Shown here piece after piece: positions 12,774-34,939 of a stretch of 34,939 nt of DNA (its first letter is position 1; each line of letters opens with the position of its first letter). The position numbers and the translations under genes are program-made. Under the pieces are notes generated by a model, which saw only the letters and a list, made by a program, of their open reading frames with translations, had not been told where the DNA came from and ran no database searches. This DNA comes from a virus: positions 1 to 34,939 of IMG/VR virus record IMGVR_UViG_3300009702_000056. One strand, 5' to 3'.

Positions 12774-13102
12774 CAACAGACCTCCTTGACATAGACCACG
12801 CCGGAACACTGCCGCGACTCGCCCGATACGGTCTGCACGACCAAGTCCAGGCAATAATATTCACCGTCAGTGCCGCCAGACAGCATCACCTGCGCAAGCT
12901 TTGCCGAATCGTGCAACGGGTTGCCAATGGTCATGTCAACAGAGCCCGTGACAATACCGCGTCGAGCCTGTGATACTGATGCCACGCTGGCGATATTATC
13001 GCCACTGTTCAGCAGCTCGGAAAAGTCAAAATCGTAGACAACATCTTCTGAGACGCGCTTTACCTGCAGCATCAGACCTGTTACGCCATCGATCAAAGCC
13101 AT
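12773..13102 (-). CDS. Possible fibre-tail adaptor protein
   Basis: 109 residues, predicted beta-rich. The pattern VVYDFDFSELLNSGDNIASV then LAQVMLSGGTDGEYYCLDLVVQT resembles small immunoglobulin-like phage proteins annotated as fibre-tail adaptors. It follows the large repetitive fibre gene (10-base overlap), which fits a docking role. The assignment is a resemblance only. Confidence 0.6.
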   Translation of the reverse strand: MALIDGVTGLMLQVKRVSEDVVYDFDFSELLNSGDNIASVASVSQARRGIVTGSVDMTIGNPLHDSAKLAQVMLSGGTDGEYYCLDLVVQTVSGESRQCSGVVYVKEVC

Positions 13103-15162
13103 GCTTTTCTGACTCCCTTGAAATTGCGTCCCCTGGACTCGATAAAAAAGTTTTTGTTGCCACCGACAAACAATATGTCATAGCCTGACAGCGTCGCGAC
13201 ATCTGACTGCATTGCGCCAGTGCCAACAATAAACCGCGTCGCCGTACCAGACGACTGCGCATTGCCCGCCTGCAGGCTGCCAGCGCCATTTGTGGATTTT
13301 GCGCCAAGGCCGGACAACAAAGCAGGGGCAACAAGCAAAGCGCCAGAACCGGAAACAATATTGCCAACTGTACCGCCACCGGCGGCCGCCGCCGGTCCTG
13401 ATTGAATAGTGCCGGCGGCGTTAATCTGCCGCACTGCCACACCGGCAAACAATGCCGCACTGGCCTGAAATGCCCCCGCGCCGATGATCTTCCGGATACC
13501 GGTACCAGCCAGGATGGAATTGCCGGCCAATAGATTGCCAGCGCCGGAAACCTGGCCGCCAATGCTGCCGCTGCCAGATGCCTGCGAGGCGGATGACTGC
13601 AATATGCCAGATGCTTTTATAGTGCGCTCTGCTGCGCCCGCAAATAGTGCCGGGCCTGCAGTCAATGCGCCATTGCCGGCGATGCCGCCGTTAATGCCGC
13701 CGCTGCCTGCGGCCGACGCCGGATCTGACTGAATAGTGGCAGTGGCATTAACCTGCCGCACTGCCACGCCAGACATACCAGCATTGGCAGACGCCAGCGC
13801 GCCAGACCCGGCAATGTTCCCACCGACGCTGCCGCTGCCGGCCGTTTGCGCAGCTGATGATTGTAGTGCACCGGTCGCTTTGACTTTGCGTTCTGCAGTG
13901 CCGGCAAATGTTGCCGGCCCGGCCTGAATTGCGCCTGTTGCTTTCACATGTCTAGTAGCTGATCCAGCCATGTTTGCATTGGCTGAAGCCAGTGCGCCAG
14001 ACCCTGCAATGTTCCCACCGACGCTGCCGCTGCCGGCCGTTTGCGCAGCTGATGATTGTAGTGCACCGGTCGCTTTGACTTTGCGTTCTGCAGTGCCGGT
14101 AAATGTTGCCGGCCCGGCCTGAATTGCGCCGGTCGCTTTCACTTGCCTTATTGCCAAGCCAGATGAATTGGCATTACCTGCGATGAGTGAGCCAGAGCCG
14201 GTGATGGCAGTACCGCCAGCTGTCGGCTGATCAAACCCAATCGACCATGGCACAACCCACGGTTCATCATCTATATCATTTAAAAATTTTGCTGAATAAT
14301 CTGTTCCAGCGCCTTTTAATGCCGAACTAGCTGGGATATGAAAATCATTGCCCGCAGTATCTATAAAATCGCCCGCGACTACACCTGTAAAAGATCCAGG
14401 CCCTGGTGGAGTTGTCGCGCTATCTGTTGCGTTTGTATTAGTTTCCGGCGCGTAGAAATTTAGCCCGGCTTTTATATCTGTCGTATTGCCATAAAATGCG
14501 CAGTTCGATAATGAAATCCCACTTTCTTTTGTTGTATCGGTGGCCGCCGCGGATATTACGGTAGCATTATTCGCAAATACGTTATTAATTGATTCATAGC
14601 TATACCACGACGGCGAGTCTATCGCTGCGCTTGTACAATCGTGCAGTAGGGAATTGTAGACCAGAAATCTACGGCCATATATTGTTTGGTCGCCGCCGGA
14701 GACAATACAGCCGTTAATTGTATTCGACCAATCTGACGCTTGATAGACCTGTATCGCTATACCTCCGCCATTTTCTAGCTCAATTTCAAGATGCTGAACT
14801 TCAAAATTGGAAATTTGGACGTCGAGAACGTTGGCCCAGACCTGGTCATGATACAGACGGAATCCTGTACCGGGCTTCCCTGTGTGTCGCTCACCCGGCG
14901 GGGATGTAATGATTACTTTATTATTCGGACCTTGAATAAATCCAGATATTACTGCTTTCTCATACAGCCCGACACCAAAGTCATTGTAGCATTCGAGTAC
15001 ATTATTCTCGTCTAGAGTAACTATATCGCGTGTTTGCTGCGCTGCGACCCACGCATTTATAGTTGTATATTGTCTGGTGCCGCCGTATTGGTCACGTTGT
15101 GACTGCGGCCAGCTATTCCAAGTAGCTGTTGTGACCAGTGCTGATTTATAATCCGCACCCAT
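13093..15162 (-). CDS. Large repetitive fibre: beta-helix head plus Gly/Ala repeat tail
   Basis: 689 residues. Residues ~1-310 look like a right-handed parallel beta helix, with many short VxxxxIxNxxV turns (for example SNTINGCIVSGG, ESINNVFANNAT, SLSNCAFYGN). Residues ~320-660 are about sixteen ~22-residue units of the form GSGALxAxxAxxxGxAxRxVKA with a 65-residue super-unit present twice almost unchanged. The last ~25 residues (FVGGNKNFFIESRGRNFKG) are basic and probably anchor the fibre. Its position before the adaptor and head-joining genes suggests a virion fibre or capsid/tail decoration. Beta-helix proteins of phages often bind or degrade surface glycans, but no catalytic site can be picked out. 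Confidence 0.8.
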   Translation of the reverse strand: MGADYKSALVTTATWNSWPQSQRDQYGGTRQYTTINAWVAAQQTRDIVTLDENNVLECYNDFGVGLYEKAVISGFIQGPNNKVIITSPPGERHTGKPGTGFRLYHDQVWANVLDVQISNFEVQHLEIELENGGGIAIQVYQASDWSNTINGCIVSGGDQTIYGRRFLVYNSLLHDCTSAAIDSPSWYSYESINNVFANNATVISAAATDTTKESGISLSNCAFYGNTTDIKAGLNFYAPETNTNATDSATTPPGPGSFTGVVAGDFIDTAGNDFHIPASSALKGAGTDYSAKFLNDIDDEPWVVPWSIGFDQPTAGGTAITGSGSLIAGNANSSGLAIRQVKATGAIQAGPATFTGTAERKVKATGALQSSAAQTAGSGSVGGNIAGSGALASANANMAGSATRHVKATGAIQAGPATFAGTAERKVKATGALQSSAAQTAGSGSVGGNIAGSGALASANAGMSGVAVRQVNATATIQSDPASAAGSGGINGGIAGNGALTAGPALFAGAAERTIKASGILQSSASQASGSGSIGGQVSGAGNLLAGNSILAGTGIRKIIGAGAFQASAALFAGVAVRQINAAGTIQSGPAAAAGGGTVGNIVSGSGALLVAPALLSGLGAKSTNGAGSLQAGNAQSSGTATRFIVGTGAMQSDVATLSGYDILFVGGNKNFFIESRGRNFKGVRKAWL
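13799..14138. repeat. 195-bp tandem duplication inside the fibre gene
   Basis: The sequence starting at 13799 repeats at 13994 with only scattered differences over about 145 bases and no frame change (195 = 3 x 65). It encodes the repeated 65-residue super-unit ending GSGSVGGNIA. Near-identity at DNA level points to a recent duplication or recombination, in contrast to the diverged outer repeats. Confidence 0.85.
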
Positions 15163-18665: not shown

Positions 18666-20843
18666 TTAAACGCCAGGGTTCTTGTAGGCGCCACGGAAAT
18701 CGATAGCAGCCACACCATAATCCAGGCGGACTTTCCACTGCATGCCATCGACATCGAAACCCTCCATGGAATCCAGGAATGGTTCACTATCGCCGTTCAA
18801 GAATGCCACCTCGATAACGGGTGCTTCGCCAGGCGCGGCAAACGTGTACCATTCTGTACCTGCAATGCGCGGAGAATCGACCACGTTACCAAATAGCCCG
18901 CGTGCCTTATTCGGCTTTTGCAGTTTGTTTGCCGTATCCGGATCGTATTGTGATTCGTTTATCACCCTGGCGTCGCCGCCTTTGTCCATGCCGCCCAACC
19001 AGATCGCAGGGCGCAGATCCAGGAACTCATTGCCAGAAATATCAGTCTGCTTTGCCATGGCAACGCGCGCCGCCTCGACTGTCGCCACGGTGACTGCCGC
19101 GCCAGCAGCAGCCAGGTTGCCATGGTTGGCATGAAACAGCACGATACCATCCGGCATCACAGGGTTGCTGGCCAGGAGCGCATAGACATCATTCTCGATG
19201 GTACGCCGCGCCGCTCTGCCCAACATTTGCGACAATCCAATAAACGCACCTAGATCATCATTAATGATGGTCTGTCTGCTGATATTGATGAGATTGCCTT
19301 TGGTTGTCGCGGTTATGGTGGCCTTTTCGCCATCCGGAATCGATTTGTTTTTGAACTCGGCGTTTTCTCCAAGCGCATCAATGTCACCAAATGACCCGGT
19401 ACGATAGCGGTTGTGTGCGCGGAAATCCGTCACCGAACCCGTTGCACAAAACTGGCTCCAGGTATCCGCCGCCTCGGCATAGGCCGCCTGCAATGTTTTA
19501 TGCATGGCATTTTCCAGCAGCACCGGGAAATCACTGGTCGATGTGGTAAATGCGCGCTTCACCATTTCCCGTTCGTCCAGACCTTTGTGAGACACGCCGG
19601 CACGCTCCAGGCAGGCTTTGGCAATTTCCGTCAGGCGCAAACCACGGAATTCATTAGCGCCATCGAATTTTTCCATGCCGGCACGGGCACGGATTGCCTG
19701 TACACCTGCATCGATAAATTTGTCACGCTGATCGGTGGTTACGGATGTATCACCACGCGATGTTTCTGCGTCGACGCGATCAGACCATGCTGCGAGCATC
19801 GTCTCTTTGGCGTCGGCGAGTTCTACGCCGCGTTCTACCAAGTCATTAGCAACCGTGTCGTCCACGCCTGCTTTTTTCGCAAATGTACGGATGCCTGATA
19901 CCCGCTCCCGTTCGGCCTTCAAAATTTCTTCTTTCTCTTTCATGCTCAATACCTTGTTATTACCAGTTTCTCCAATATCGCAGGATGACAACGATCTACT
20001 GCCGTCAGCCCTTGTTTCGTATGTACAACCATCGTTTTCCGCAGCCGCAATCAAGTCATCGAGCGATACACCCTCCAGCGTATCCGCGAACCCCTGCAAC
20101 CGCTCCACAGGTGGACAGTTGATTGATCCATCCAGAATCTGCGACACTGTTCCGGATTCGATGCCGGCCGCGCTGGCCATCGATGCAATAATGTCGGCGC
20201 GCAGATTGCTGTCTGTTTCCATACCGGAAATGGCGTCATCCAAAGCAGAAGCCAGGCTTGCGCCGCGATTGTTATTGACATCTGGCAACACAACCTGCAC
20301 TTCTCGTTTTTCTCCGTGGCCCTGATCACTGCGCACCTGGGCACCGGCATCGGCAGGAACGGATACTAACGACAGCTCTGCCGGCTCCCAGTCAGTCGCA
20401 CGGTAAACAGGCAGGCCATCGCGCAATTCTTCCTGTTTTTCCATTTTGTTGATGCTGTAGCCAACTGAGATGTTGCGAATAATGCCGTCCTTGACATCCT
20501 GTATAATAGGCTTCACTGCATCGCGTTCAGAAAATCTGACCGTTGCCCGGCCTTCATTGCCATCCAACCAGGCGCGCTCAACAACGCCAACGACATCATC
20601 AAGGCCCTGCCAATGGCTTGCCAGAAGAGGCGCACCATTATTCAAACGATCCATGCGGACTGCAGATTCATCCAGGCTGAGTTCTTCGATAAATTCTCTA
20701 TCCGCCCAGAAATCATAGCGCCGTACTTGCGCACCAGTGGTCCAGACCACATCTACAGTGCGCTGTTCCTCATCGAGTGTTTGCGGACTTACTGCAGACC
20801 GAAACTGCAGCTTTGCCGGAATTTTACGGGTTTGTATTTGCAT
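18666..20843 (-). CDS. Prohead protease fused to major capsid protein
   Basis: 725 residues. Residues ~1-190 form an HK97-type prohead serine protease with H77 (LLASHW) and S126 (IRNISVGYS). Residues ~200-320 form a linker with acidic and Gln-rich segments (MKEKEEILKAERERVSGIRTF), probably the scaffold/delta domain. Residues ~340-725 are the major capsid protein (DVYALLASNPVMPDGIVLFHANHGN, ...GMQWKVRLDYGVAAIDFRGA). Protease and capsid in one chain is an established arrangement in some phages; self-cleavage would release the mature subunit. It overlaps the portal gene by 20 bases. Confidence 0.9.
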   Translation of the reverse strand: MQIQTRKIPAKLQFRSAVSPQTLDEEQRTVDVVWTTGAQVRRYDFWADREFIEELSLDESAVRMDRLNNGAPLLASHWQGLDDVVGVVERAWLDGNEGRATVRFSERDAVKPIIQDVKDGIIRNISVGYSINKMEKQEELRDGLPVYRATDWEPAELSLVSVPADAGAQVRSDQGHGEKREVQVVLPDVNNNRGASLASALDDAISGMETDSNLRADIIASMASAAGIESGTVSQILDGSINCPPVERLQGFADTLEGVSLDDLIAAAENDGCTYETRADGSRSLSSCDIGETGNNKVLSMKEKEEILKAERERVSGIRTFAKKAGVDDTVANDLVERGVELADAKETMLAAWSDRVDAETSRGDTSVTTDQRDKFIDAGVQAIRARAGMEKFDGANEFRGLRLTEIAKACLERAGVSHKGLDEREMVKRAFTTSTSDFPVLLENAMHKTLQAAYAEAADTWSQFCATGSVTDFRAHNRYRTGSFGDIDALGENAEFKNKSIPDGEKATITATTKGNLINISRQTIINDDLGAFIGLSQMLGRAARRTIENDVYALLASNPVMPDGIVLFHANHGNLAAAGAAVTVATVEAARVAMAKQTDISGNEFLDLRPAIWLGGMDKGGDARVINESQYDPDTANKLQKPNKARGLFGNVVDSPRIAGTEWYTFAAPGEAPVIEVAFLNGDSEPFLDSMEGFDVDGMQWKVRLDYGVAAIDFRGAYKNPGV

Positions 20844-22227
20844 TCATATTTCCTGTGTTTTGATTTTGCAAACCGCCGTTGCCAGTTGTCTTGCGTGGAT
20901 CGCTGTCCAGAATCAAACCGAGAGCATCCAGAATCTCGTTGCTTTTTGCATATTCATTCAAAACCTGATCGGGATCGTATCCACGTTGCCGCAATGCCTC
21001 CGGCAATGTAGTCAGACCGGCACGAATGGCAGCGATGATTGGCGGCAATTCTTTTGCCGGATCGACCATCATGCGCGCCGGCGGCGTCCAGTCAACACTG
21101 GCGCCAGATAGCCCGGCAATATCGATAAACCATTGCGCCACACGATCGCACAGCCGCGGTATAAACAATTGCCAGCGCCAACTGTCGATGGATCGTCCAA
21201 ACTCCTGCCAGCCCATGCGTGCCGATGAGAAATTGACTTCAGACAGGTCGCCTGTCAGTGACTCGTAGGTGACGCCTAACCCAGCGGCAATGGCTTTCAG
21301 ATTTGCCTTTGTGTAGGGGCTATATTCAGCGGCAATTGGCGGGTTGGAAAACTCTATGGTGCGGCCCTGACGCATCAGATAAAGCGACCCGGATGTCAGC
21401 TCGGAAACATCGCTGAATTCTTCTTCAGTATCTTCAGGATCGTCCGTATAGATAAACCCGGCAAACAGATTCGCGAGCTTTTGCCTGTTAAGGAATACAT
21501 CCTCAAAAATATCGAGTTCGCGCAGGCGAATTATCACCGGTGCCAGCCAGGGCACGCCGCGTTCCTGGCCTGGCCGGTCGATACGAAACAAATGGATAAC
21601 TTCATTGGCTGGGACGCGGGAGTAAGAACTTGAAAGTCCGCCGAAATTGCGCCCGGATGTGCCAGGGTGATGTTTATACAGAAAATAAGCAACGCGCCTG
21701 CCGATCGCATCATACTCGATGCCGCGCTGGATGTAGCCACCGTTTCTCAGTGGTCCGTCGTTGTATTCATAGAAAAAATCCGGCTCCATCAGCTGCAACT
21801 GCATCGGCACGACCAGGCCGTCTTTTGTCTTGCGCGGCCGCAGACGAATCAGACATTCACCAGATTCAACCATGGCCCGCATTGCAGTCTGCTGTATGCC
21901 GAAGAAATTCGTCAGGCCCTGGGCGTCACACTGCGCCGTACCGGCCCATGCTTTCCACAGCGCCTCTATTGATTTGAGATTGCTCTTCCTGCGCGCGGAC
22001 CATTGCGCGCGGATACCCTGCCCGATGGTATTGTTGACAACCACAGACACGCCTTTCGCGGCCCAGGGGTTATTGCGGATGAGATCGCGGGAACGACTGC
22101 GAATAAGAGAGGGGTCATTGATGGCAGCATTGGCATCGGTCGCCGGTGTGCGCCAGTTTTTTGTTCTTGACGTGCGGCTGGCCGCGTCATAACGCCGCTT
22201 TTGCAAATTGACAACCTTGCCGCTCAC
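20824..22227 (-). CDS. Portal protein (lambda B family)
   Basis: 467 residues. It contains the lambda-portal core: GQGIRAQWSARRKS, EVIHLFRIDRPGQERGVPWLAP, ELDIFEDVFLNRQKLANLFAGF, LGVTYESLTGDLSEVNFSS and IPRLCDRVAQWFID. It forms the DNA entry dodecamer. It overlaps gpW by 4 bases and the protease-capsid gene by 20. Confidence 0.95.
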   Translation of the reverse strand: MSGKVVNLQKRRYDAASRTSRTKNWRTPATDANAAINDPSLIRSRSRDLIRNNPWAAKGVSVVVNNTIGQGIRAQWSARRKSNLKSIEALWKAWAGTAQCDAQGLTNFFGIQQTAMRAMVESGECLIRLRPRKTKDGLVVPMQLQLMEPDFFYEYNDGPLRNGGYIQRGIEYDAIGRRVAYFLYKHHPGTSGRNFGGLSSSYSRVPANEVIHLFRIDRPGQERGVPWLAPVIIRLRELDIFEDVFLNRQKLANLFAGFIYTDDPEDTEEEFSDVSELTSGSLYLMRQGRTIEFSNPPIAAEYSPYTKANLKAIAAGLGVTYESLTGDLSEVNFSSARMGWQEFGRSIDSWRWQLFIPRLCDRVAQWFIDIAGLSGASVDWTPPARMMVDPAKELPPIIAAIRAGLTTLPEALRQRGYDPDQVLNEYAKSNEILDALGLILDSDPRKTTGNGGLQNQNTGNMNANTNP

Positions 22228-22499: not shown

Positions 22500-22766
22500 C
22501 TAATCATGTTTTTCGCCTTCTGTCTTCAAAATCCTATACACACTGCGTTCGGATATCCTGGCGCGTCTGGCGATCATTACCACACTTGCGCCATTCTCGT
22601 AAAGCTCCAGTATTTCCCGGTTGCGTTTTTCGTAATCGTTATGCGGAATATAAATGCGCTCACCACCAAGCCGCTGGACAAGCGACATCACCACATCACG
22701 CGCCATCCCATCATCGCCAATAACATCGCTGACAATATTGCACATTTCCTCTATCAATCCGCTCAT
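22500..22766 (-). CDS. Mor-like transcription activator
   Basis: 88 residues. The C-terminal helix-turn-helix (SVVMIARRARISERSVYRIL, about 63-82) and the preceding GGERIYIPHNDYEKRNREILE correspond to the Mu Mor/C family of activators. It starts in an ATGA overlap with the end of the large terminase gene. A Mor-type activator in the packaging operon suggests autoregulated late expression. Confidence 0.8.
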   Translation of the reverse strand: MSGLIEEMCNIVSDVIGDDGMARDVVMSLVQRLGGERIYIPHNDYEKRNREILELYENGASVVMIARRARISERSVYRILKTEGEKHD

Positions 22767-24808
22767 AGCAAGCTTGAATTCCTTTTCGGTTTTTTTACCT
22801 TTGGCTTGTTTGTTCTCTTTTTCAAGGCATCATCACGATCAACAACATTGCTATTCAGACCATGCTCAGCCGCCCAGGATGGCGGAGACGACCAATTGAA
22901 ACGGTCACTATTGAGACCAAGCTTCCAGCAACCAGCCAGGATGTAAACGCACAAATCGAGCGTCTCATTCCTGGGGCTGATTTTTTCCCACTTTCCATTG
23001 TCCTTTCTGACCTCTGCGCGCAACTCATCGAAAAAGCCCTCATCCAGCCACTGCGGGAAGTGCATGTACATACCGCCTGGCGATACCCGGCGCAATATCG
23101 ATGCAACAATGTCTTTAAAGAAATTTGTGTTCAGCAGAAATAGCGGGATCTCTTTCATTTGTCGCCCGGATGGATCTTTGCCATATGTCCCGATGATAGG
23201 CGATTCCATTTTTCCACCAGATCCGCCCTTGATCAGCATTACCTTGCCGGCCATCCCTGCCTTTCTGAGCTTTCTGTAAAACTGGTAAGCATTGTTTGTG
23301 GTGTCGCCCTCACCGCCAGTATCGATAACAGCTTTGTGAACCAGCATTTTTTTTCCTGATGATGTTTTGTAGCTGGCCATGATCACCCGTGGTATCAGCA
23401 ACTGCCAGTCTTCCAGGTAGCTGCCTGGGTTGATGCGCCTTTTTTCTGTTTCATTTTCCGTGAATGCAATATCGAATCTGTCGACTACCCATTGTTCCAA
23501 GCCGATGCCGATGGCATGCACCTGGACGACGAATCGCGACATTTTACCGCCCTGCACATCAACTGAGGCGATCAGAAGCCGGGCGTCATCTGGTACAAAG
23601 TAGCGGTCCAGATGTTCGACGCGCTCAGAAAGACCTTCCCTGTTTTCATTATCCACCAGGTGCTGCGGCATATACGGGGCACCAAAGCCAACATTGACCA
23701 CAGTTTTCAGATTTTCTTCCGACCCGGTTATGTCGTATTCACGATGGCTTTTCAGATATTTCTCCACGAGTGACGCCGGGTCTGAATAGGCTGCAAATAT
23801 GCCCGGAAACCAGAATGACGCTATCCTCCCGCCAACCGATTCACCAGTGATCTCGCCGTTTTCGATTTTGCAGCCTGCTGGCACCCATTTGCCGCCGGCA
23901 TTCATGCGACGTTTATGGTGTAAATCGATTTGGCAGCCATTCCGTGTTCATATGTATTTGACAGGAGTTGTCATAGCGGCAATTGTTGTCCCAAGTAAGT
24001 CGCGGTTATGCCCAAACATAAGACCACTCTCATCTGGTGGCGGCATGAAATATTCGTGACATTGTGGGCATTCAACATACCAACGACGCATATCTCCCAT
24101 GTTGAAAAGCGACAGAGCACCGCCGCATGGCGGCGCTTCATGCGGATGGTTTTTTTTCTTGCCTGAGTCTGTGATCTCGAATCCTGGCGACGTTTCCACC
24201 AGAGTCATGCCGCGGCTCAAATATTTAGCGGTGCGTTGCTGCGACAATGAGAAAGGCGACCCCTCTCCATCAACGTTCTGCGTCATCCTGTCGTAGTCTG
24301 TTATCAGCATATATTTCAACGGTTTCCCTGATATTTCATTGATCGATGGCCAGCGCTGGAATAAAATCGCCCCAGATTTAAAAACCTTGTCGTATGTATT
24401 ATCGCTTTTACTCCCAGGCGCCAACTCCATTTTCAGATCAGCACTATCTCTGAACGCGCGCTTTATGACCTGTGTATCAAAATCCCTGGCTGTCCCCTTG
24501 GTGGTTTGCATAATGAGAAAATCGGAAGGATCGCATTTGATTATGTATGCCATGGAGCAGGTCACCAGACCCTGGGTTTTCCCTGATTGCGCCGGACCAA
24601 CGAAGATGACCGCATCATATTTCCTGCTGCTAAGGCAGTCCATTGGCTCGATCATGTAAGGCGTCAACTCGGGATCCCATCGCTGAATCCCACCGCTTGC
24701 CGTGCGCACATTGACATACCGGCTTGCCGCTTCAGCCACGCTGATACGCTCAGGCGGGCGTATCATCTGCGCAATATCGCTCCTGATTGCTGACGCGGAT
24801 AATGTCAT
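22763..24808 (-). pseudogene. Terminase large subunit (gpA family) interrupted by in-frame TGA
   Basis: 681 sense codons in one frame, interrupted once by TGA at codon 287 (23950-23948). Before it: ATPase with FVGPAQSGKTQG (~69-80), KYMLITDYDRM as Walker B, and a zinc-type MRRWYVECPQCHEYF. After it: NGCQIDLHHKRRMNAGGKW, then the nuclease with LLIASVDVQGGK and HKAVIDTGGEGD. The local sequence VKYI-stop-TRNGCQI suggests a Cys at the stop (family pattern C-x4-C). Restart at ATG 23905 is possible but has no clear SD. Unless the stop is bypassed, packaging would fail and the prophage would be defective. Confidence 0.9.
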
Positions 24809-25296
24809 GCTGCATCCTCCAAAACACTAGCCCACTGCTCGCGAAGCGCATCGATGCGCTGTTCAACGCCAACAATGACATCAGGATCGATATTAAAATC
24901 ACGCTCCAGGATATCCGGCAATGTCTCAAGAATATGCAAGCCAGTCTGGGCAACTCTTGCCATTTCAGTACGAGCATCCGCAGCAGAAACCAGCAACCCG
25001 GCATCACGCTCAAATTTAATCCTGTCGTTTTCAGATTTATACCAATCGGACCGCTCCTTTGGCGTCATGGATGCAGGATCGTTAAGACCCTGCGATGCTG
25101 AAGTATCCGGAGCCAGGATAGCTTTTGCCGATGCACCGACAGGATAGACAGGATGCCCGCGGCGTTCACCAGAAGGATCAACAGATGCTTCACGCAGCCT
25201 CCGCTGCACAGTTTCCCTGGCAATATTGAATTCCCTGGATAGCTGATTAAGCGACCAGCTGAACCAGTCTTTCTGTGAAACGACAGTCGCAACCAT
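24805..25296 (-). CDS. Terminase small subunit, DUF1441 family
   Basis: 163 residues from ATG 25296. An N-terminal DNA-binding HTH (WSLNQLSREFNIARETVQRRL) is followed by DPASMTPKERSDWYKSENDRIKFE and the helical C-terminal region typical of DUF1441 (Nu1-like). It overlaps the large subunit start by 4 bases. It recognises phage DNA for packaging. Confidence 0.85.
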   Translation of the reverse strand: MVATVVSQKDWFSWSLNQLSREFNIARETVQRRLREASVDPSGERRGHPVYPVGASAKAILAPDTSASQGLNDPASMTPKERSDWYKSENDRIKFERDAGLLVSAADARTEMARVAQTGLHILETLPDILERDFNIDPDVIVGVEQRIDALREQWASVLEDAA

Positions 25297-25331
25297 AAAC
25301 AAAATATTCTATTATTTCAGTTTAATTTCAT

Positions 25332-32611: not shown

Positions 32612-33439
32612 ATGAACACACACATTTGCATTTACCACAAAGATTGCGCAGACGGGTTCGGTGCAGCACTGGCATTTAAACTGCATGCTGAAAAGCGTCA
32701 AATAAACGCCGAATTCATACCGGCTCATTATGGCGATCCAGCACCAGAAAACATTGATGGAAAGCGCGTGATAATACTCGATTTCAGTTACCCGCGCAAC
32801 GTGCTCCTGGACATGGAAAAAAGAGCCAGATCACTATTGGTAATCGATCACCACATAACAGCGGAAAAAGACCTGAAAGGCCTGGAATATTGCATATTCG
32901 ACCAAAGCAAATCAGGTGCAGTTCTGGCATGGGAGCATTTCCACACAAGCGACGTTCCTGATCTTTTTCAATATATTCAAGACAGGGATCTATGGCTTTG
33001 GGATCTACCATATAGCAAAGAAGTATCCGCCGGCCTGGAACTATTGGAAAAGAACTTCGCGCTTTGGAAGCTTCACTTACCGCCATATGGCGTGGAAGCA
33101 TTAATAAACAGAGGCCGCATAGTTCTGAAATACCAGCAAAAGCAAGTCGAAAAAATAGTTTCGAGATGCAACGGAACGGAAAATATTGCCGGATATAACG
33201 TGCCCTGCGTCAACACCACAACCATGATCAGTGAAACAGGACATGAACTGGCAAAAGGCCACCCGTTCGCAGCAATGTATTTCGAGACAGACGACAAACG
33301 CATATACTCACTGCGATCCGCACCAGATGGAATCGATGTGTCTGCAATAGCAAAAAAATTCGGCGGCGGCGGACACTTCCATGCTGCAGGTTTTTCAATT
33401 CCAAAGCCAAACATAGCCCTGCAATTGCCGTTGGAATGA
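32612..33439 (+). CDS. DHH/DHHA1 phosphoesterase
   Basis: 275 residues. Motifs: HKDCADGFGAA (~9-19), VIILDFSYP (~53-61), VIDHH (~77-81) with the DHH metal site, and a DHHA1 C-terminus with GGGGHFHAAGF (~251-261). Such enzymes hydrolyse oligonucleotides or cyclic dinucleotides such as c-di-AMP or pGpG. Its substrate here is unknown. It lies in the regulated rightward operon beside int. Confidence 0.88.
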   Translation: MNTHICIYHKDCADGFGAALAFKLHAEKRQINAEFIPAHYGDPAPENIDGKRVIILDFSYPRNVLLDMEKRARSLLVIDHHITAEKDLKGLEYCIFDQSKSGAVLAWEHFHTSDVPDLFQYIQDRDLWLWDLPYSKEVSAGLELLEKNFALWKLHLPPYGVEALINRGRIVLKYQQKQVEKIVSRCNGTENIAGYNVPCVNTTTMISETGHELAKGHPFAAMYFETDDKRIYSLRSAPDGIDVSAIAKKFGGGGHFHAAGFSIPKPNIALQLPLE

Positions 33440-33702
33440 TAGCCGCAGTCAACATAGAGCAACAGTGCGTATGGGGAATAGGAGAAACAGAAGAAGAGGC
33501 GCTTGAGGATGCAAAAAAAGAACTGGATGGCAAGTCGGAGAGATTACAAAAAATCGGCCTCGGAGAAATTCATTTTGTCAGGATCAGGAAAAACGCAAAA
33601 CTCGAATACTGTGGTGAAGTGCTATTCAAATCCTGTATATTGAAAAAAACCTTGCCAAAACCAGCAGACAATACACCGAACCAGGCGGACATATTCCAGT
33701 GA
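33436..33702 (+). CDS. Hypothetical protein
   Basis: 88 residues starting in an ATGA overlap with the phosphoesterase. VWGIGETEEEALEDAKKELDG is an amphipathic alpha unit. Its end overlaps the integrase GTG start by 4 bases, so it is coupled with both. Confidence 0.58.
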   Translation: MIAAVNIEQQCVWGIGETEEEALEDAKKELDGKSERLQKIGLGEIHFVRIRKNAKLEYCGEVLFKSCILKKTLPKPADNTPNQADIFQ

Positions 33703-34823
33703 AAAAACGCGGCAGAAAACGCAGCAGCCGACACCTGCCGGCACATATAAACCAAGACAAACTTCCGGACCGCGTCTGGTACGACAAAACAGGTGCCGGG
33801 AAATGGATGCTCAAATACAAAGACGACGCCACAGGAAAATGGCGCTCCAAAAGAATCTGCAGCGGGCTGGCGACCCTGGCGGAAATCTGGCAGGCGACAG
33901 AAGCGCGGGAAAAACACATTGCGACAACATTCGCAGATCTGTCAAACGAATTCCAACAAACCCTGGCATGGCGAAAACTCAGCCCGCTTACCCAGCGCGA
34001 CTACATCGACTGCCATAACAGCATCACCACACGCAAAACAGCGCGAGGCGCCCTTGGCAGCGAACCTATCAGCCAATGGACAACCGGCCTGGTGCGCAAG
34101 TACCGAGACAAACGCGGAGAAGAATCAGAAAGCCGGGCAAATAAAGAACTGGCGTATATCAAACGTGTCTTCAGCTGGGCCTACGAATACGAAAAAATAA
34201 AATTCAATCCGGCAACAGGCGTAAAAAAACTTACCATCAAACCGCGCCAACACTACGCAGAAGACAAAGACTATCAATTCATGCTGCAGATCGCCAGACA
34301 ATCAAACTACTGGTACGTGCCATATTGCATGGAAATAGCCTACCTCTGCCGCATGCGCTTGTGCGAAGTACTCGACCTGACAGACGCCAACCAGCTGGAC
34401 AATGGCCTGCTCATCAAACGCCGCAAAAACAGCAAAACAAACATCACAGAATGGACACCACGACTGCGCGACGCCTGGGACCAGGCGACAAAAACCCGTA
34501 ACGACATACTGCAAAAACGCCATCAGCCACACCCGATCATCCCGGACAAACGCTACATATTCATCAGCGCACGAACAGGCAACAGAATACAACCAAGCAG
34601 CCTGAAGACAGCACTTTCGAGAATCGGAAACCTGGCAGAAAAAACAGCAGCAGAAAATGGCATCGAATTCACCCGCTTCACATTCCACGACCTGAAAAGA
34701 AAAGGCATTTCAGACACCACAGGCGACAAACTCAAAGCATCTGGCCACAGATCAGCAAACATGCTCAACGTCTACGACGTAAAACCAGACCTGGTGAAGC
34801 CGGCTGGAGACAACAAAAAATAA
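33699..34823 (+). CDS. int: Tyrosine integrase
   Basis: 374 residues from GTG 33699. An N-terminal basic arm-binding region (residues 1-60) and a core-binding helical domain (80-180) precede the catalytic domain. Catalytic residues: R220 (CRMRLCE), a Lys in RRKNSKT near 241-247, H330 with K333/R334 (FHDLKRKG), H350 (GHRS) and Y359 (NVYDVK). The K in place of the common R at H+3 occurs in related phage integrases. It lies beside attR with its 3' end towards tRNA-His and recombines the 52-bp core. Confidence 0.95.
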   Translation: MKKRGRKRSSRHLPAHINQDKLPDRVWYDKTGAGKWMLKYKDDATGKWRSKRICSGLATLAEIWQATEAREKHIATTFADLSNEFQQTLAWRKLSPLTQRDYIDCHNSITTRKTARGALGSEPISQWTTGLVRKYRDKRGEESESRANKELAYIKRVFSWAYEYEKIKFNPATGVKKLTIKPRQHYAEDKDYQFMLQIARQSNYWYVPYCMEIAYLCRMRLCEVLDLTDANQLDNGLLIKRRKNSKTNITEWTPRLRDAWDQATKTRNDILQKRHQPHPIIPDKRYIFISARTGNRIQPSSLKTALSRIGNLAEKTAAENGIEFTRFTFHDLKRKGISDTTGDKLKASGHRSANMLNVYDVKPDLVKPAGDNKK

Positions 34824-34887: not shown

Positions 34888-34939
34888 AAAAAATGGGGTG
34901 AACGATGGGGCTCGAACCCACGACAACCGGAATCACAAT
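34888..34939. repeat. attR: attR: right copy of the attachment core
   Basis: Perfect copy of 1-52. The tRNA-His gene continues to the right outside the window, so this copy completes the functional tRNA (the phage carries the 3' half and restores the gene). Confidence 0.95.
34894..34939 (-). tRNA. tRNA-His (anticodon GTG), 3' part only
   Basis: Minus strand from base 34939 (anticodon loop TTGTGAT at the window edge) to CCA at 34896-34894. T-arm and the acceptor strand CGTTCACC are intact. The sequence differs from E. coli hisR in the acceptor and anticodon stem. The 5' half lies beyond the window. Confidence 0.88.

Follow-up and report, generated by a model that had tools for sequence, protein, structure and literature searches.

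A probable recent nonsense change at a conserved cysteine codon in the terminase large subunit gene of a temperate myovirus

A single in-frame TGA interrupts the terminase large subunit gene (terL) of a temperate myovirus at a codon that specifies cysteine in every readable relative. We favor, with some reserve, the reading that a change of one base, recent relative to the age of the family, introduced this stop into an otherwise complete prophage, whose packaging would be blocked by it. An error in the consensus sequence ranks next, as a serious but less probable explanation. Throughout, the window is the whole 34,939-base virus record that was analyzed. Its terL frame lies on the minus strand from 24808 to 22763 and spans 681 residues with one break, the TGA at 23950-23948 (codon 287); the only other stop in this frame is the terminal TGA of the gene.

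The part of the frame upstream of the break, an open reading frame of 286 residues (23948-24808, minus strand), matches the Pfam family PF05876 (GpA_ATPase) over profile positions 6 to 205 of 247, with an E value of 1.7e-54 and a score of 185.5 bits (cut-off 25.6). The part downstream matches the complete profile of PF20454 (GpA_nuclease) with an E value of 7e-62. The reading frame and the family sequence run on across the TGA with no frameshift, and the nearest relatives align straight through it, which bears out the original prediction of one nonsense codon in terL with both parts in a single frame and family sequence continuing gapless between them. The endonuclease domain lies in the same chain as the ATPase only if the TGA is decoded. 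These matches identify the gene as a member of the gpA-type terminase large subunit family, with a product expected to be truncated. Like other gpA-type terminases (the lambda gpA family; PF05876, PF20454), it has both domains, the TerS-TerL gene order, the Walker A sequence GPAQSGKT and a four-cysteine motif between the domains; unlike them, it is interrupted by a TGA at the third of these cysteines. Identity of the C-terminal half to named phages reaches about 44% at best. Automatic annotation will show two partial terminases at this locus.

Codon 287 was compared with its counterparts in IMG/VR. The nearest relatives there, with 66 to 69% identity over the whole protein, all align without gaps and carry TGC or TGT at this codon. 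The wider set consists of 98 distinct near-full-length relatives, one of which is gapped at codon 287 in its pairwise alignment, leaving 97 readable. All 97 have cysteine (61 TGC and 36 TGT), the pattern expected of a pseudogene formed by point nonsense mutation, in which relatives keep a sense codon where the window has a stop. TGA at this codon was seen neither in the 97 readable relatives nor in a pattern search of IMG/VR: a degenerate pattern for the site gave 43 TGC or TGT matches, 42 of them in terminases, and the same pattern with TGA gave six matches, none in a terminase. A search of IMG/VR by exact pattern found no near-identical sibling of the window, and no nucleotide match was found in E. 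coli and phage DNA. When the C-terminal half was used as a query against viral contigs, no relative was confirmed among the pattern matches.

The interrupted codon is the third cysteine of a motif composed of C247-x2-C250 (24059-24070) and C287-x4-C292 (23933-23950, both on the minus strand), defined from invariant columns. Its second half reads C287-TRNG-C292 once the TGA is replaced by the TGC or TGT of the relatives, in agreement with the earlier assignment of the position to a C-x4-C cysteine. In a 25-sequence alignment, with residue 287 of the window entered as cysteine, three of the four motif cysteines are invariant and the other one is almost so. The second pair is C-x2-C in one relative (L020), as expected of a zinc site, and the C-x2-C...C-x4-C arrangement is probably such a site. 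In the predicted model, a strand precedes each cysteine pair and a helix follows the second, with pLDDT of about 80 to 90 in this region. No solved structure of the terminase was found by sequence, and a literature search on zinc in lambda gpA returned nothing from the papers covered. A fold search with the model, which is of modest confidence, retrieved other large terminases (Sf6 gp2, E217, P22 and T4 gp17), mostly through the nuclease half.

Beyond the stop itself, terL shows little sign of decay. In a leave-one-out test, the window departs from the other 27 sequences at one of the 101 columns that are invariant among them, namely the stop at codon 287, and the relatives show 0 to 6 departures each in the same test. 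Nonsynonymous distances between the window and its relatives are 0.14 to 0.19 upstream of the stop and 0.31 to 0.37 downstream, at or near the values between distant pairs of intact relatives; saturation at synonymous sites makes all of these figures approximate. A single departure together with ordinary nonsynonymous distances means that the change either happened recently, is not real or is tolerated. Relaxed selection after a stop is seen in old pseudogenes and is not required of a recent one. The absence of further lesions is compatible with a very recent change, and equally with an error or with suppression of the stop.

The rest of the record is that of an intact temperate phage. Single open frames encode the terminase small subunit (24805-25302, minus strand; its stop overlaps the terL start), the portal protein (20824-22227, minus strand), the head protease with the major head protein (18666-20843, minus strand), a decoration protein, an endolysin, the integrase (33699-34823, plus strand) and P2-like tail proteins. 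No further in-frame stop or frameshift was found in the other window genes that have relatives or family matches, and general prophage decay was consequently rejected. Two additional genes deserve mention: a DHH/DHHA1 phosphoesterase gene (32612-33439, plus strand) adjoins the integrase, and an open frame of 689 residues (13093-15162, minus strand) lies between the head and tail modules and has no PHROG or Pfam match.

An exact 52-bp direct repeat occupies both ends of the record (1-52 and 34888-34939) and equals half of a methanotroph tRNA-His, the 3' half that begins in the anticodon loop and closes with CCA; the tRNA half is read on the minus strand in the left copy. Of 237 genomes from the methanotroph family that includes Methylobacter marinus, 81 contain a 28-base part of the repeat, which fell within tRNA-His genes at all six loci examined. 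Since the repeats match a tRNA-His 3' half and the integrase adjoins the right copy, the usual layout of att sites, the record extends from one att site to the other and so represents either a complete prophage or the circular form of one. Among cellular sequences, those closest to the terminase come from Methylococcaceae, which makes a methanotroph host probable.

If the TGA is read as a stop, translation would end after residue 286 to give an ATPase half that would lack both the nuclease and the last ligand pair of the probable zinc site. Upon induction, the prophage would be expected to replicate, make heads and lyse its host, but its DNA would be neither cut nor packaged. Classical nonsense mutants in lambda gene A likewise fail to cut or package DNA. 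The window resembles such amber mutants in having a single stop in the large subunit with the rest of the phage intact, and differs from them in being a natural record, known from sequence alone, with TGA rather than TAG. We infer that the change is present in the organism as well as in the consensus, and that packaging would fail; the earlier suggestion of a non-packaging phage is thus kept as the best inference.

The main competitor to a recent nonsense change is a base error in the consensus, or a minority variant of the metagenome assembly, so that the true phage would have a cysteine codon and an ordinary terminase. This is possible, perhaps half as easy to believe as the reading we favor. 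TGA is one base away from either cysteine codon, and an error would leave just such a sole lesion, with the prophage complete and the rest of terL showing no relaxation; on the other hand, comparable genes in the window contain no other apparent error, whether stop or frameshift. Single nonsense codons in terL also occur in about 1 of 98 such records, although some of these may be errors too. That figure comes from one relative, L133 (IMGVR_UViG_3300031133_000100), whose terL has a point nonsense TAA at codon 218 of the match and is otherwise intact in frame. The lesion sets a background of roughly 1% for terL nonsense codons in records of this kind, arising by mutation or by error. The terL genes of L133 and the window are homologous, and each has one point nonsense codon in a frame that is otherwise intact. 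They differ in the position and identity of the stop, and L133 has a near-identical sibling, L130 (5 differences over 2,022 bases), in which terL is intact.

A different kind of interruption was observed in the terL of a Methylobacter marinus A45 prophage (L030, 8630-11935) and in two further relatives (L019 and L118), all of which have an in-frame insertion of about 390 residues. In L030 it sits exactly after GPAQSGK of Walker A, starts with ALSLDTPIPTPSG and ends with IPTHN before TQGL. Judged by its sequence, the insertion resembles an intein placed within the ATP-binding loop.

Each of the explanations in which the TGA is compatible with a working terminase appears improbable to us. TGA terminates 20 of the 32 assumed genes of the window, terL included, and the genetic code is therefore standard; an alternative code in which TGA specifies a residue was rejected on this stop usage, since TGA is not avoided as a terminator, and among comparable genes an in-frame TGA was seen in terL only. 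ARAGORN found no tRNA in the window, so a phage-encoded suppressor tRNA was rejected as well. Stop reassignment in phages is exemplified by crAss-like phages that read TAG as Gln (PMC9523058). Phages of the kind described there and the window both have an in-frame stop inside an essential gene, but the window has a single such codon, uses TGA as a terminator elsewhere and carries no suppressor tRNA. Suppression of the stop, which had been offered earlier as an escape route, gained no positive evidence from the code, the tRNA search or the searches for SelB and a SECIS-like fold, nor does any relative have the same TGA.

In many bacteria, TGA is the leakiest stop. Low-level read-through by near-cognate tRNA-Trp or tRNA-Cys, or by a host suppressor, could supply enough full-length motor; insertion of cysteine would restore the probable zinc ligand and insertion of tryptophan would not. 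Full conservation of the part downstream of the TGA speaks for this possibility, and yet the missing suppressor tRNA, the normal use of TGA as a terminator and the lack of any relative with a stop at codon 287 make it unlikely. Even less credible is a functional recoding site at which Cys or Sec would be inserted at a controlled rate, making the motor limited in amount or dependent on conditions. A two-chain terminase is more doubtful again. The original prediction of a restart at 23905 was right in that an ATG is present there in frame, at codon 302 and 15 codons past the TGA, and the frame that would follow (22763-23905, minus strand, 380 residues) holds the whole GpA_nuclease profile. The enzyme it envisaged, with an ATPase chain that stops at the TGA and a separate nuclease chain from this ATG onward, gains no positive support: no Shine-Dalgarno-like sequence precedes the ATG, the restart begins after C292 and so breaks up the conserved four-cysteine motif, and none of the 98 near-full-length relatives is split at this site. 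With both a split homologue and a ribosome site absent, a natural split was rejected. Least probable of all is selenocysteine in place of the zinc-ligand cysteine. The TGA does sit exactly on a cysteine codon, in the usual pattern of Cys/Sec exchange, but the RNA right after it has a weaker fold than shuffled versions of itself (z = +1.2), no Rfam match or hairpin of SECIS type was found near it, and in the family to which the host probably belongs SelB exceeded the curated cut-off in none of 237 genomes, in a search that did recover the E. coli and Methanocaldococcus controls. There is also no obvious benefit of selenium at a structural zinc site, and selenocysteine was rejected on the fold, Rfam, SelB and the missing TGA in relatives. 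Given the weak fold, the lack of Rfam, SelB and tRNA hits, the standard code and the absence of TGA from the terminase matches, programmed decoding has no positive support.

The TGA is thus most likely not a new genetic trick, and knowledge of terminases and of decoding is unchanged by it. If the TGA is present in the organism, a prophage with an apparently single disabling lesion would give a useful picture of how prophage domestication begins in methane-oxidising bacteria.
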